Shown: piece after piece, positions 20,760 through 28,642 of the stretch
How positions within the stretch are numbered: the first letter of the stretch is position 1
How the letters are laid out: each line of letters opens with the position of its first letter
DNA from: Chloroflexota bacterium
Lineage (GTDB): Bacteria; Chloroflexota; Anaerolineae; UBA4142
Assembly (NCBI GenBank): GCA_016219275.1
Contig: JACRBM010000040.1
Span: 62,001-126,000, forward strand
Length of the DNA stretch: 64,000 nucleotides
Direction of reading: 5' to 3'
Notes under the pieces: generated by a model
What the model was told of the DNA's origin: nothing
The model's database searches: none
What the model saw: the letters and a program-made list of their open reading frames with translations, nothing else
Position numbers and translations under genes: made by a program

Positions 20760-20874
20760 GTGTCATTGCGGGCGAAGCGAAGCAATCACCCCTCCCTACC
20801 CTCCCCTTACCAAGGGGAGGGTTAGGGTGGGGTTGGAGATTGCTGCGGGCAAAATCCGCCCTCGCAATGACATA
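20760..20874. repeat. Nested dispersed repeat (GTCATTGCGGGCGAAGCG type)
   Basis: The outer arms, GTGTCATTGCGGGCGAAGCG and a right arm containing CGCAATGACA, are inverted. The inside contains a second palindrome with CCCTCCCCTT and AAGGGGAGGG and the phrase GGTTAGGGTGGGG. This composite intergenic element is widespread across unrelated bacterial genomes and carries no gene. Confidence 0.75.
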
Positions 20875-20958: not shown

Positions 20959-21591
20959 ATGGCGACTCCGCAAGCATCCCCGATAGCAGACCTGGGTCAG
21001 GTCGCGTTCAGCCCCCGCGCGCAACAATTCTTCGACCAGGTTTTCAAACCGCGCTATACCGCGTTGCAACAAGCCGTGCGCCAAACTCCGCTCGTTATTC
21101 TCGTGTGGGGTCCGGGCGCGAGCGCCGGCGATTTGTACCGCAAGCGTCTGCAAATTCGCGATGAACTCCGCCGCCTGGGTCACGCCGCGGTGTTTAGCGA
21201 AGAACTCGCCGGCGGCTCGCCGGCAGAAATGTCCCAAAAGGGCATCGAGTTTCTCCAAGCCCAAGCCGCCGATCTCATTGTCGTGATGCAGACCTCGTAC
21301 GGCTCCGTCGCCGAAGTTCACGACTTTGCGAGTTATCGCATCGTCAATTTCAAAATGCTGATCTTTATTGACGAACGCGCGCAAGACGGCTATTCGTATC
21401 GCGGCGCATTGACCGAACTCAAAACGCTGTACAACAATGTCGAAACGTTCAAGTATCCCGACGACATTACGCAGTGCCACTTGCTCCGCAAAGTGATCGA
21501 AAAAGTCAACGTGCTCCAGATGGTCAAGTATCGCGATCAGCAAAACGTGGCGAGCTGGGCAGGCGTCAATCCTGGGGAGCCAACGCGATGA
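20959..21591 (+). CDS. Rossmannoid protein resembling nucleoside deoxyribosyltransferase/TIR-like enzymes
   Basis: 210 residues from the ATG at 20959 (GAGGAG upstream). After about 40 helical residues comes a parallel alpha/beta core: LVILVWGPGASAG (glycine-rich loop, G51-P-G53), YRKRLQIRDELRRLG helix, HAAVFSEE strand, KGIEFLQAQAADLIVVM, then SYGSVAEVHDF with candidate catalytic Glu119, and MLIFIDER. This order (strand-loop, IRDxL helix, ADLIVVL, GSxAEVxDF, K-strand) is that of the deoxyribosyltransferase/TIR-like superfamily, which acts on nucleosides or NAD. The gene overlaps the next by ATGA. Exact family and substrate are inferred. Confidence 0.6.
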   Translation: MATPQASPIADLGQVAFSPRAQQFFDQVFKPRYTALQQAVRQTPLVILVWGPGASAGDLYRKRLQIRDELRRLGHAAVFSEELAGGSPAEMSQKGIEFLQAQAADLIVVMQTSYGSVAEVHDFASYRIVNFKMLIFIDERAQDGYSYRGALTELKTLYNNVETFKYPDDITQCHLLRKVIEKVNVLQMVKYRDQQNVASWAGVNPGEPTR

Positions 21592-22832
21592 ACCCGCCCT
21601 CCCACGATTCGTACGCGCGCAATCTACTCGAACTGTACCGCACGCATCGCGACGAGATTGACTCACTGTCCGATCCAACCGTGTTCTTCATCCTGGGATT
21701 GGTCAATCACGTCGGCAAGGTCACGCTCGACGATCTCGCGCGCGATGTCAACCTCGCGCCGAACGAACTGCGCGTCAAGCTCGTATCGCTCTTGCGCGGC
21801 AAACTGATCCAGGACGCCAAAGGCACGTTGACCGTAACTGCCCTGGGCGCGCAATTACTCAAGGAACTCGGCTTTCCGATACAGCCCGTCCCAGCATCCA
21901 CTCAACCGCGTTCTCAACCGCGACCACAAACTCTGCCGCGCGGTGCTCCACAGCCAGTGCCCGCGCGCCGAATCAATTGGGGCATGTGGATTGGTGTCGC
22001 GGCAACAATCGTTTTGTTTTTCGCGATTGGCGGAGGCGCGGTCCTCATCGCGCTGAGTCGAACGCCAATAGCCATGATCACGGCAACACCCATTTTGATA
22101 TCTACGCCCACGAGCACCAGCACGTCATTGCCAACGGATACGCCAATCACACCAGTCACGGTCGCGCCATTTGTGCCATCGCCAACGCCGACCCCATCGA
22201 GCGCGCCATCGCCAACGCTCACCCGAACTCCGTCGCTGACCGTGACACCATCGCGCACACCAACGCGCACGCGCACACCGACGATCACACTGACCGCCGT
22301 ACCGACGACGATCACGCTGCCGGCAGTCGAAGATGCATTCGTCACTTCGACCTGCGGCGCGAGCAGTCCGAACAACACGACCCAGCTCAACGTGGCGTCC
22401 AACTCCGGCGATCCGGATTGTCCTGGCGCTAAACAACGCGCACTGCTGCGATTCGGACTCAAACTGCCGGCGAATTACGCGATTCTGCAAGCCAAATTGA
22501 ATGTCCATGTGATGACCGCTACATCCGGCACGACCCGCATCGGCGTGCATCGCTTGACGGGCGCGTGGTCCCAAACGGCTGTCACCTGGAACAACCAACC
22601 CGGGCGCACCGCGATGTACGACAATGTGAGCGTGGGCGGCGAAGGGTGGTACACCTGGGATGTGACCAAAATGGTGGAGGAGTGGCACACAGACGCGCAA
22701 CCGGACAATGGATTGGTTTTGATGAACACGAGTGAAAATCTGAGCACGATCAACTATCGCGCCTTTAACAGCAACGAGCATCTCAATCGCGCGTTGCGTC
22801 CGTACTTGCAGATCACGTATCGTCCCAGGTAA
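21588..22832 (+). CDS. Transmembrane protein: internal winged helix, external DNRLRE domain
   Basis: 414 residues in four parts: a winged-helix-like domain (about 25-95, VGKVTLDDLARDVNLAPNEL and GKLIQDAKGTLTVT), a Pro/Arg linker, one membrane span (about 131-157), a long Ser/Thr/Pro stalk (160-245), then a DNRLRE-type beta-sandwich (about 250-414) with the family signature WSQTAVTWNNQP, and GWYTWDVTKMVEEW. Such external domains are linked to carbohydrate or surface binding. It starts within the stop of the Rossmannoid gene. The layout suggests a sensor connecting the cell surface to DNA or to the partner enzyme; that is inference. Confidence 0.75.
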   Translation: MNPPSHDSYARNLLELYRTHRDEIDSLSDPTVFFILGLVNHVGKVTLDDLARDVNLAPNELRVKLVSLLRGKLIQDAKGTLTVTALGAQLLKELGFPIQPVPASTQPRSQPRPQTLPRGAPQPVPARRINWGMWIGVAATIVLFFAIGGGAVLIALSRTPIAMITATPILISTPTSTSTSLPTDTPITPVTVAPFVPSPTPTPSSAPSPTLTRTPSLTVTPSRTPTRTRTPTITLTAVPTTITLPAVEDAFVTSTCGASSPNNTTQLNVASNSGDPDCPGAKQRALLRFGLKLPANYAILQAKLNVHVMTATSGTTRIGVHRLTGAWSQTAVTWNNQPGRTAMYDNVSVGGEGWYTWDVTKMVEEWHTDAQPDNGLVLMNTSENLSTINYRAFNSNEHLNRALRPYLQITYRPR

Positions 22833-22873: not shown

Positions 22874-23509
22874 ATGCTTGAACCGCAAGTCGCCGCTGCG
22901 CCGACGCGCACGCCGGCAAAATCGCAAATGACGTTTGAAGAATTTCTCGATTGGTGCGACGAAGACACTCACGCCGAGTGGGTCAACGGAGAAATTGTGA
23001 TGACTTCACTAGCCAGTGCACAACATCAGGACATCAAAAGATTTCTCTTTGTTCTATTGCGTCAGTTCGTGCGACGCAATAAACTAGGAAAAGTTCTCGA
23101 CGCGCCCGTCTTGATGCGCCTGCCGCACGTACCCAGCGGACGCGAGCCGGACATTCTATTTGTGCGCGCGGAGAACACGAATCGTTTGCGCGACACGTAC
23201 CTCGATGGTCCCGCCGACCTCGTCGTCGAAATCATTTCGCCGGAAAGCATCGCGCGCGATCGCGGCGACAAGTTCGTCGAATACGAACAAGCCGGCATTC
23301 CCGAATACTGGCTAATTGATCCGATTCGCCGTCGCGCCGAGTTTTACGTACTCAACGCGACGGGGATGTACGAACTCATCAACCCAGACCCGCGGGGCAT
23401 TTTTCAATCGCGCGTCGTTGATGGATTCTGGTTGCGCGTCGAATGGCTCTGGCAAGACCCGCTTCCACTCGAAGAAGACCTGCTCGCCGAAATTCGCAAG
23501 CGCGCGTAA
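22874..23509 (+). CDS. Uma2-family (DUF820) PD-(D/E)xK nuclease-like protein
   Basis: 211 residues from the ATG at 22874, with AAGGA 7 bases before it. Typical family motifs: MTFEEFLDWCDEDTHAEWVNGEIV, the catalytic region REPDILFV and PADLVVEIISPES (Asp and Glu-x-Ile of the PD-(D/E)xK core), and DKFVEYEQAGIPEYWLIDP. These proteins are abundant in cyanobacteria and Chloroflexota; their biological role is uncertain. Followed by a clear intrinsic terminator. Confidence 0.9.
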   Translation: MLEPQVAAAPTRTPAKSQMTFEEFLDWCDEDTHAEWVNGEIVMTSLASAQHQDIKRFLFVLLRQFVRRNKLGKVLDAPVLMRLPHVPSGREPDILFVRAENTNRLRDTYLDGPADLVVEIISPESIARDRGDKFVEYEQAGIPEYWLIDPIRRRAEFYVLNATGMYELINPDPRGIFQSRVVDGFWLRVEWLWQDPLPLEEDLLAEIRKRA

Positions 23510-23567: not shown

Positions 23568-25652
23568 ATGCCCAACTTTCAACTCGTTTCTCCGTTTCAA
23601 CCGACCGGCGATCAACCCGCCGCGATTGACAAACTCGTACAAGGCATTCAGCGCGGCGACAAGTACCAAACCTTGCTCGGCGCGACCGCCACCGGCAAAA
23701 CGTTCGTGATGGCGGCGATCATCGAAAAAGTTCAAAAGCCGACGCTCATCATCGCGCACAACAAAACGCTCGCCGCGCAGTTGTACTCCGAGTTCCGCGA
23801 ATTCTTTCCGCACAACGCGGTCGAGTACTTTGTATCGTACTATGATTACTACCAACCCGAAGCGTACGTGCCGCAACACGATCTCTACATCGAAAAGGAT
23901 TCGAGCATCAACGAAGAGATTGATCGCCTGCGCCTCGCGGCAACCGCCTCCCTGCTCTCGCGGCGCGATGTCGTGATCGTCGCGTCCGTGTCGTGCATCT
24001 ACGGTCTGGGTTCGCCCGAAGAGTACGCGCGCGTGTCGGTGAAACTTCAACGCGGCGAGACGCGCAATCGCGACAAGGTTCTGCGCCAACTCATCGAGAA
24101 TCACTACGAGCGCAACGATCTCGACCTGGGTCGCGGCAAATTTCGCGTGCGCGGCGACACGCTTGAAATCGCGCCGGCGTACGGCACGACCGCGTATCGC
24201 GTCGAGTTCTTCGGCGACGAGATCGAACGCATCACCGAGGTGGACACGACGACCGGCGAAGTCCTCTTTGAACATCCCAACGTCGAAGTTTTTCCGGCGA
24301 AGCATTTCATTACGCCGCAAGACAAGCTCAATGCCGCGCTGCAAGATATTGAAAAAGAACTCGCCGATCAAATCGCCAAGTTCAAAGACCAGGGCAAATT
24401 GCTCGAAGCGCAACGCATCGAACAACGCACCAAGTACGATCTCGAAATGTTGCGCGAGGTCGGCTATTGTTCCGGCGTCGAAAACTATTCGCGACCGCTC
24501 GCGCAACGCGCGCCCGGCTCGCCGCCGTGGACGCTGTTCGATTATTTTCCCGACAACTTTTTGCTCTTCATTGACGAATCGCACATGACCGTTCCGCAAA
24601 TTCACGGCATGTACAACGGCGACCGCGCGCGCACAGAAACGCTCATCGAGTACGGCTTTCGCCTGCCGAGCGCGCTCGACAATCGTCCGTTGCGTTTTGA
24701 AGAATTCGAAAAGGAACTCAACCAAACGATTTTCGTCAGCGCGACGCCCTCCGAGTACGAAATCAAATCGAGCGCGCAAGTCGTCGAACAAATCATTCGC
24801 CCGACCGGTTTGGTGGACCCCGAAGTTTCCGTGCGTCCGATCAAAGGTCAGGTGGACGATTTGGTCGCCGAGATTCGCAAACGGCTCGAACTACACGAGC
24901 GCGTGCTCGTCACAACGCTGACCAAACGCATGGCGGAAGATTTATCCGAGTACCTCCACGAACTCGGCATCAAGGTGCATTATCTCCATTCCGAAGTGCA
25001 AACGCTCGAGCGTGTCGAGATTCTGCGCGATCTCCGTCTCGGCGTGTACGACGTCATCGTCGGCATCAACCTTTTGCGCGAAGGACTCGATCTGCCTGAA
25101 GTGTCGCTCGTCGCGATTCTCGACGCGGACAAGGAAGGATTTTTGCGGAGCGGCACCGCGTTGATTCAAACGATCGGGCGCGCGGCGCGGCACGTCAGCG
25201 GTCAAGTGATCATGTACGCCGACGTGATGACCGATTCGATGAAGCGCGCACTTGAAGAAACGAATCGTCGCCGCGCGATTCAAGTGGAACACAACACCAC
25301 GCACAACATCGTGCCGCAAGGCATCGTCAAGCAAGTGCGCGATCTCACCGACCGCGTGCGCGTCGCCGCGGAAGGGAGAGAAGAATACAAGGCAGGCGGC
25401 ATCGGCAAGCTCGAAAAATCGGAAGGCGCGAAATTGATCGAGGAACTCGAAAAGCAAATGAAGCAAGCCGCGCAGAACTGGGAATTTGAAAAAGCCGCGC
25501 TCTTGCGCGACCAGATCATCGAACTGCGGCAGATGCTCGACGCGCAAGATACGCGACCCGAGTGGAAAAAAGTGATGGACGACGAGAACCGTCACGAACT
25601 CGAAGAACTGCGCGCGCAGAGACCCGCCGCCCCCGCGCGCCGCAAACGATGA
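23568..25652 (+). CDS. uvrB: Excinuclease ABC subunit B
   Basis: Damage-verification helicase of nucleotide excision repair, acting with UvrA and UvrC. Full length at 694 residues: Walker A GATATGKT (about 38-45), beta-hairpin region [12 protein letters not shown], helicase motif DESH, motif [34 protein letters not shown], and a C-terminal UVR domain ([20 protein letters not shown]) that contacts UvrC. AGAGG lies just before the ATG. It overlaps the downstream glycosyltransferase gene by ATGA. Confidence 0.98.
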
Positions 25653-28055: not shown

Positions 28056-28642
28056 AGGACGCTAAAGCGTCCTGAGAATTCGGAATTCAAAAAGCATGCG
28101 ATTCTTCAGACAAAAAGGCGAATCGTTTACAACTCGCTCTTGCTCGTATAAAACACAAATAACATAGAGGCACCATGGCGTACTGGCGATTGTTCTACCA
28201 CATCACGTTCGCTACCAAAAATCGCGGGGCGATGATCACGCCCGACATCGAACCCGAATTGCATGGTTACATCGTCGGCAAGGCGCAAGCATTAGGCGCG
28301 ATAGTGTACGCCGTAAATGGAATCGCGGAACACGTTCACGTCGCCACATCGGTGCCACCGAAAGTCTCCATCGCGGATTTTGTCGGGCAGATCAAGGGCG
28401 CGGCGTCGCATCACATCAACCATTTGCCCAAGCCACCCGAACGACTATTCGATTGGCAACGCGGGTACAGCGTCGTCTCGTTCGGGCAAAAAGATTTGGG
28501 GCGTGTGATCGAATATGTTTGCAATCAGAAGGAACACCACAAACGCGGGACGATCATCCAGGCAATGGAACACGCGGACGAACTGGACGACGCGCCGCAA
28601 ATCACAGCAAGTGAATAACCCGGCAGGACGCTTCAGCGTCCT
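28056..28642 (+). mobile_element. IS200-like element bounded by matching subterminal palindromes
   Basis: The transposase gene (28175-28618) lies between AGGACGCTAAAGCGTCCT (28056-28073) and AGGACGCTTCAGCGTCCT (28625-28642), which differ only in the loop. Each is followed by an EcoRI-like GAATTC context. This is the arrangement expected for subterminal hairpins of single-strand transposons; the exact cleavage ends cannot be fixed without an empty site. Confidence 0.65.
28175..28618 (+). CDS. tnpA: IS200/RAYT-like Y1 transposase
   Basis: 147 residues of the Y1 (HUH) transposase family. HUH motif is EHVHV (about residues 52-56); the catalytic tyrosine is expected in VIEYVCNQKEHHK near the C-terminus; YHITFATKNR opens the fold, and ISIADFVGQIKGAAS-like residues match the IS200 pattern. 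Length is full for the family, so it may be active. Upstream and downstream palindromes support single-strand excision, or a role in spreading REP-like repeats. Confidence 0.9.
   Translation: MAYWRLFYHITFATKNRGAMITPDIEPELHGYIVGKAQALGAIVYAVNGIAEHVHVATSVPPKVSIADFVGQIKGAASHHINHLPKPPERLFDWQRGYSVVSFGQKDLGRVIEYVCNQKEHHKRGTIIQAMEHADELDDAPQITASE

Follow-up and report, generated by a model that had tools for sequence, protein, structure and literature searches.

The locus described here lies in a 64,000-nucleotide stretch of a Chloroflexota contig, which in its whole length was the DNA analysed (hereafter, the window). It raises the question of what a predicted nucleotide-processing protein (P1) could be doing beside a membrane protein (P2) that would hold a winged helix inside the cell and a quite different domain outside it. 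A previous sequence-only reading of this DNA had suggested that the two proteins form a signalling or defence device. The features on which the analysis of this proposal relies are the following:

20959..21591, plus strand: P1, nucleoside-deoxyribosyltransferase (NDT)/TIR-like protein, 210 aa (reading frame, AlphaFold (AF2) model and fold match)
21588..22832, plus strand: whole P2 reading frame, 414 aa (reading frame)
21588..21887, plus strand: P2 cytoplasmic winged helix with an N-terminal NLLELYR..HRDEID helix, residues ~1-100 (12-sequence alignment and model of a fused homologue)
21996..22052, plus strand: P2 single transmembrane span, residues 137-155 (hydropathy)
22053..22310, plus strand: P2 Thr/Pro/Ser stalk (composition)
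22308..22829, plus strand: P2 extracellular CBM96/DNRLRE domain, residues ~241-414 (PF24517, DNRLRE_dom)
22874..23509, plus strand: Uma2-family gene (PF05685)
23568..25652, plus strand: uvrB, conserved downstream neighbour (gene context)

Domain architecture of the two proteins

Both reading frames announced in the sequence-only reading are present at these coordinates and overlap by ATGA. Their coding status is backed by orthologues 74-79% identical, with dN/dS ~0.1, and the source genome (6.2-Mb assembly) holds one copy of the pair. Two other elements have been observed nearby: a G-rich imperfect inverted repeat (window 20790-20860), found once in the window, within the 243 bases that separate P1 from the divergent rsmG, and, a few kb downstream (window 28175-28618), a gene that by eye resembles those of REP-associated/IS200-type transposases.

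P1 contains an N-terminal helix, a β1 loop with the residues WGPG (50-53) and the motif YGSVAEVHDF, in which GSVAEVHDF, already pointed out from the sequence, occupies residues 115-123, with Glu at position 119. Family libraries give weak matches to NDT_II-A in PADLOC (E=6e-5) and to the retron St85-family effector in NCBIfam (E=0.0015), together with a match to Pfam DUF4062 (PF13271) that falls below threshold (E=0.023, 15.3 bits vs a cut-off of 24.7), and all of them converge on one superfamily direction. The AF2 model of P1, built from 14 homologues (pLDDT 82), is Rossmann-like, its putative nucleophile Glu coming behind strand 3, and the structure it matches best is that of the retron-Eco1/Ec86 effector, which takes Foldseek ranks 1-3 (VIA Z 11.8 over 144 aa at 3.4 Å), followed by DNPH1 and CMP N-glycosidases (Z 10-11.3), and then by TIR-STING; PDB structures of NDT, MilB and TIR proteins are matched as well. 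Since DNPH1 lies less than 1 Z unit from the retron effector, the fold ranking alone is not decisive. In a profile alignment, where sequence similarity is weak (E 0.015), Glu119 aligns with E106 of the retron effector, the residue altered in its inactive structure 8qbl. The model thus places P1 as a predicted member of the NDT/TIR-like superfamily, and the deoxyribosyltransferase/TIR-like fold proposed earlier is borne out by this model and its PDB matches. Among homologues, W50, P52, E81 and K132 show little or no variation; P1 orthologues have dN values of 0.09-0.17, with dS >1 wherever estimable, and are under strong purifying selection.

The order of the P2 domains given in the sequence-only reading, with a winged helix inside, a single span, a Thr/Pro stalk and a DNRLRE domain outside, is supported by hydropathy, composition, domain matches and the model of a fusion. 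Residues 137-155 have a hydropathy of 2.44 over 19 residues, with an Arg-rich flank on the cytoplasmic side, the stalk is ~60% Thr/Pro/Ser, and the ectodomain matches Pfam PF24517 (E=5.2e-24) and NCBIfam DNRLRE_dom (E=5.3e-30). The N-terminal winged helix, sub-threshold in Pfam, is seen in the confident model of a naturally fused homologue (pTM 0.83) as a canonical winged helix, the structural neighbours listed for it being MarR/CggR-like DNA-binding domains; no OmpR-type Trans_reg_C match was obtained for P2 in Pfam at E<=5. CBM96/DNRLRE domains are usually polysaccharide-binding or structural, without an obvious link to phages. The acquisition of this domain from a paralogue in the same genome has been ruled out, no second DNRLRE copy having been found elsewhere in it.

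Constancy of the pair and replacement of its outer domain

In the order to which the source genome belongs, 14 copies of P1 were found, distributed in 11 of 20 genomes. Eight copies are followed by a separate gene for a protein with winged helix, span, stalk and ectodomain; in another four, P1 and this winged helix form a single in-frame fusion, which has a span in three cases and is soluble in one, and the remaining two are divergent (G001 and the second copy of G012). Thus, within the order, the winged helix is encoded by the next gene or fused in 12 of the 14 P1 loci, and the co-occurrence on which the earlier proposal depended is conserved. A winged-helix profile search across the order yielded no convincing copy without P1: of the additional matches, a strong one in G008 begins 148 bases away from the end of its contig, and a further two, weak fragments (E ~1e-4 to 1e-3), did not qualify as members. 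Its recurrent position next to an NDT-like protein, or in fusion with one, suggests that the winged helix may serve as an adapter rather than bind DNA.

The model of the fused form was also compared with the partly resolved retron effector chains 8qbl_G and 8qbk_F, to which 87-90 residues align at 2.5-2.8 Å (Z ~9), the aligned region covering both the winged helix and the N-terminal helix. Foldseek returned nothing below E=0.001 for this fused model, so that the two-domain match comes from the VIA rows only.

The winged helices of the two-gene loci share 29-66% pairwise identity, and ectodomains of different classes have no mutual similarity. The latter belong to the DNRLRE class in the window, to beta-propellers in G010, G002 and G007, to CarboxypepD_reg in G004 and to SBP_bac_5 in G015 and G019, those of G006 (its outer part being short in the contig) and G008 being unclassified; some family members lack any ectodomain. 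P1 and the winged helix are constant, and the ectodomain is replaced between genera. A constant inside with a changing outside would be the pattern expected of a receptor.

In other classes of Chloroflexota, too, P1 homologues stand before winged-helix proteins, and four further relatives of P1 were found among 400 Chloroflexota genomes. In two of them (G603 and G415) the NDT gene belongs to a type I restriction-modification (R-M) operon, in the order hsdM-hsdS-NDT, followed by an HsdR whose N-terminus is a winged helix recognised by the P2 profile (E 5e-6 and 2e-7, respectively). In G475 the NDT gene overlaps by ATGA the gene for a protein of 410 aa that also contains this winged helix (1.8e-7), and in G477 a winged-helix-like N-terminus precedes, by eye, repeat-like sequence. 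The divergent copy in G001 is accompanied, ahead of hsdM, by a zinc-ribbon/MerR protein whose end was likewise recognised by eye as winged-helix-like. The winged helices of these distant relatives are related to those of the P2 type by hhalign (95.7%, E 1e-8). A weaker relative, G756, lies beside a reverse transcriptase, its match to the retron effector reaching 1e-7. This chain of relatives links the P1 of the window to retron effectors and R-M systems.

Several loci observed in the course of this survey deserve separate mention. In two type I R-M operons (L100:2673-11037 and L101:3612-12059), an NDT-like gene separates hsdS from an hsdR whose product begins with a winged helix; with their toxic effector, these operons may represent an R-M variant not described so far. 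In L109:3933-5994, from a Chloroflexota genome, a reverse transcriptase and a stand-alone NDT effector without winged helix lie ~420 bases apart, likely constituting a retron of the type II-A kind. The defence-rich L102:1658-14611 encodes an NDT-like protein, a zinc-ribbon/MerR protein, HsdM, GmrSD, HsdS, HsdR and a DUF4062-NB-ARC protein, and in L103:10610-11716, another membrane-linked architecture, membrane spans predicted at the N-terminus precede an NDT-like domain, a TPR protein coming next.

The account considered most likely, although at somewhat less than an even chance, is that P1 and P2 are a receptor-effector pair built on a retron-effector-like NDT/winged-helix module that has been split, anchored to the membrane and provided with an exchangeable sensor. 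According to this proposal, the winged helix of P2 would bind P1 and control it; a stimulus at the cell surface would pass through the span to P1, which would then cleave NAD+ or a nucleotide through Glu119, and this cleavage could arrest or kill the cell, or make a signal.

Genomic site, loss of the glutamate and other possible roles

In most two-gene loci uvrB lies downstream of the pair, within a few bases in G004, G015 and G019, and a Uma2 gene sometimes intervenes. Where genomes lack the pair at this site, uvrB is immediately preceded by neighbours of the same type, frequently including Uma2, and a Uma2-like gene precedes uvrB in G001, G012, G013 and G017, all of them without the pair there. 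Uma2 therefore belongs to the uvrB site and not to the cassette: the gene noted closely behind the pair is indeed present, but as a third component it has been discarded. The fused copies with a span adjoin pnp. The presence of the pair at one site in two families suggests ancestral presence followed by repeated loss. Neither P1 nor the R-M-linked relative gave plasmid matches, and the latter gave none in viral contigs; recent mobility of the pair is ruled against by the lack of plasmid matches, and its presence or absence at one site suggests losses rather than hops. As for defence islands, whose enrichment the sequence-only reading had named as a check, the transmembrane form does not lie in one, but keeps a fixed position on the chromosome, ahead of uvrB or beside pnp. 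A defence-type location occurs, among the loci of the family, only in the R-M-linked distant relatives, so that the defence role formerly suggested retains a basis through relatives (the retron NDT effector and type I R-M operons) but not through the location of the transmembrane form.

The conservation of the P1 active site, on which the earlier proposal also depended, holds in part. The presumed catalytic Glu persists in the clade of the window, with the six closest orthologues retaining it, and in all the distant relatives, but has been lost in 6 of the 14 copies of the order (the f2 pair G015/G019 and the four fusions), in two sister branches corresponding to two changes on the tree. The fused form without Glu is still under selection. 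Since Glu is lost while pairing persists, the coupling to the winged helix has outlasted the presumed nucleophile. These branches do not agree with a pure toxin model; in them the pair may retain ligand binding or signalling without catalysis.

A stable location, and the fact that two branches no longer have the catalytic Glu, would also suit an alternative in which P2 is a ToxR/CadC-like membrane one-component transcription factor sensing the surface or envelope, with P1 as a nucleotide-binding co-regulator, envelope or repair genes being regulated without any defence role. P2 shares with such regulators a cytoplasmic N-terminal winged helix, one span and an external sensor, the topology given for ToxR-like receptors (PMC5430869), and its winged helix resembles DNA-binding domains. 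Nevertheless, that winged helix appears to be MarR/CggR-like rather than OmpR-like, its NDT-like partner is always present, with no convincing copy lacking it in the order, and it appears fused to NDT or HsdR, where promoter binding is unlikely. Moreover, the putative recognition-helix positions vary, by eye, among orthologues. This alternative is considered unlikely.

The uvrB neighbourhood, together with the closeness of DNPH1 and CMP N-glycosidases in fold, could instead indicate that P1 is a DNPH1-like hydrolase cleaning the nucleotide pool, operon-linked to uvrB and nucleotide excision repair, and that P2 tethers or regulates it. Against this, the uvrB neighbourhood is conserved even without the pair, the pnp-site fusions and the R-M-linked relatives are not beside uvrB, Glu is lost in the uvrB-linked G015/G019 copies, and an ectodomain is unexpected for pool cleaning, all of which makes it improbable. 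Just as improbable is a role of the pair as a surface adhesin or an anchor in the cell wall, in which the cytoplasmic part would be passive and P1 a catalytically dead scaffold, as the Glu losses and the frequency of variable ectodomains on Thr/Pro stalks in secreted Chloroflexota proteins might suggest, since P1 is the best-conserved part, keeps its four nearly invariant residues, and occurs in members wholly without ectodomain.

Relation to known systems and scope of the family

The receptor-effector reading finds its closest known counterpart in the retron type II-A effector (Ec86/Eco1; 7xjg, 8qbl, 8qbk), whose NDT-winged-helix organisation is of a known kind (PMC12548924, where the work on the NAD+-hydrolysing filament of retron-Eco1 is cited). 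P1 shares with it the NDT fold with an N-terminal helix and the Glu in GS-x-x-E, catalysis by P1 being putative. A winged helix C-terminal to NDT in one protein is absent from the window and occurs in the four fused homologues, the soluble one (294 aa) being similar in size to the retron effector (307 aa). Unlike the latter, the family mostly distributes the two domains over separate genes, a membrane receptor or HsdR bearing the winged helix, and its sequence similarity to the retron effector is marginal. A retron at the window locus has been ruled out, there being no reverse transcriptase on the contig; RVT_1 matches, in 12 genomes, lie on contigs other than that of the pair, and an adjacent reverse transcriptase occurs only in the distant relative G756.

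The Swarozyc DUF4062 TIR-like NADases, which have a winged auxiliary domain (PMC13174449), also share the TIR/NDT-like fold, the conserved Glu, modular partner domains and an HTH/winged auxiliary domain, but P1 stays below the Pfam cut-off for DUF4062; the word transmembrane is absent from the main text of that source. As for type I R-M systems, distant relatives are embedded in them, whereas the window pair has no adjacent R-M genes. To our knowledge, neither the NDT gene nor the winged-helix extension of HsdR is a standard type I component. None of the family libraries or papers searched showed NDT and a winged helix combined with a membrane receptor or with HsdR, and nothing relevant on R-M systems with an NADase and a winged helix was found in the open-access literature. 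Thus, the parts are of known kinds, and their combination with a membrane receptor and HsdR appears to be new with respect to the literature searched.

A broader idea, rather doubtful at present, is that an NDT-like protein and a winged-helix adapter constitute a general two-part effector cassette, the winged helix being a plug on HsdR, membrane receptors or other sensors. The retron II-A effector would then exemplify a broader, sensor-agnostic NADase module, whose bacterial transmembrane receptor version would be the one in the window, with a layout like that of a Toll-like receptor having its TIR effector on a separate chain.

If the receptor-effector reading is true, a retron-type toxic effector would not be tied to reverse transcriptases, the NDT and winged-helix unit being wired to restriction enzymes and to membrane receptors whose outer domains are exchangeable, and the role of the winged helix in retron effectors would become testable. 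The two branches without Glu would offer natural controls separating catalysis from signalling, and the family would be a prokaryotic case of a TIR/NDT-like enzyme coupled to a transmembrane receptor.
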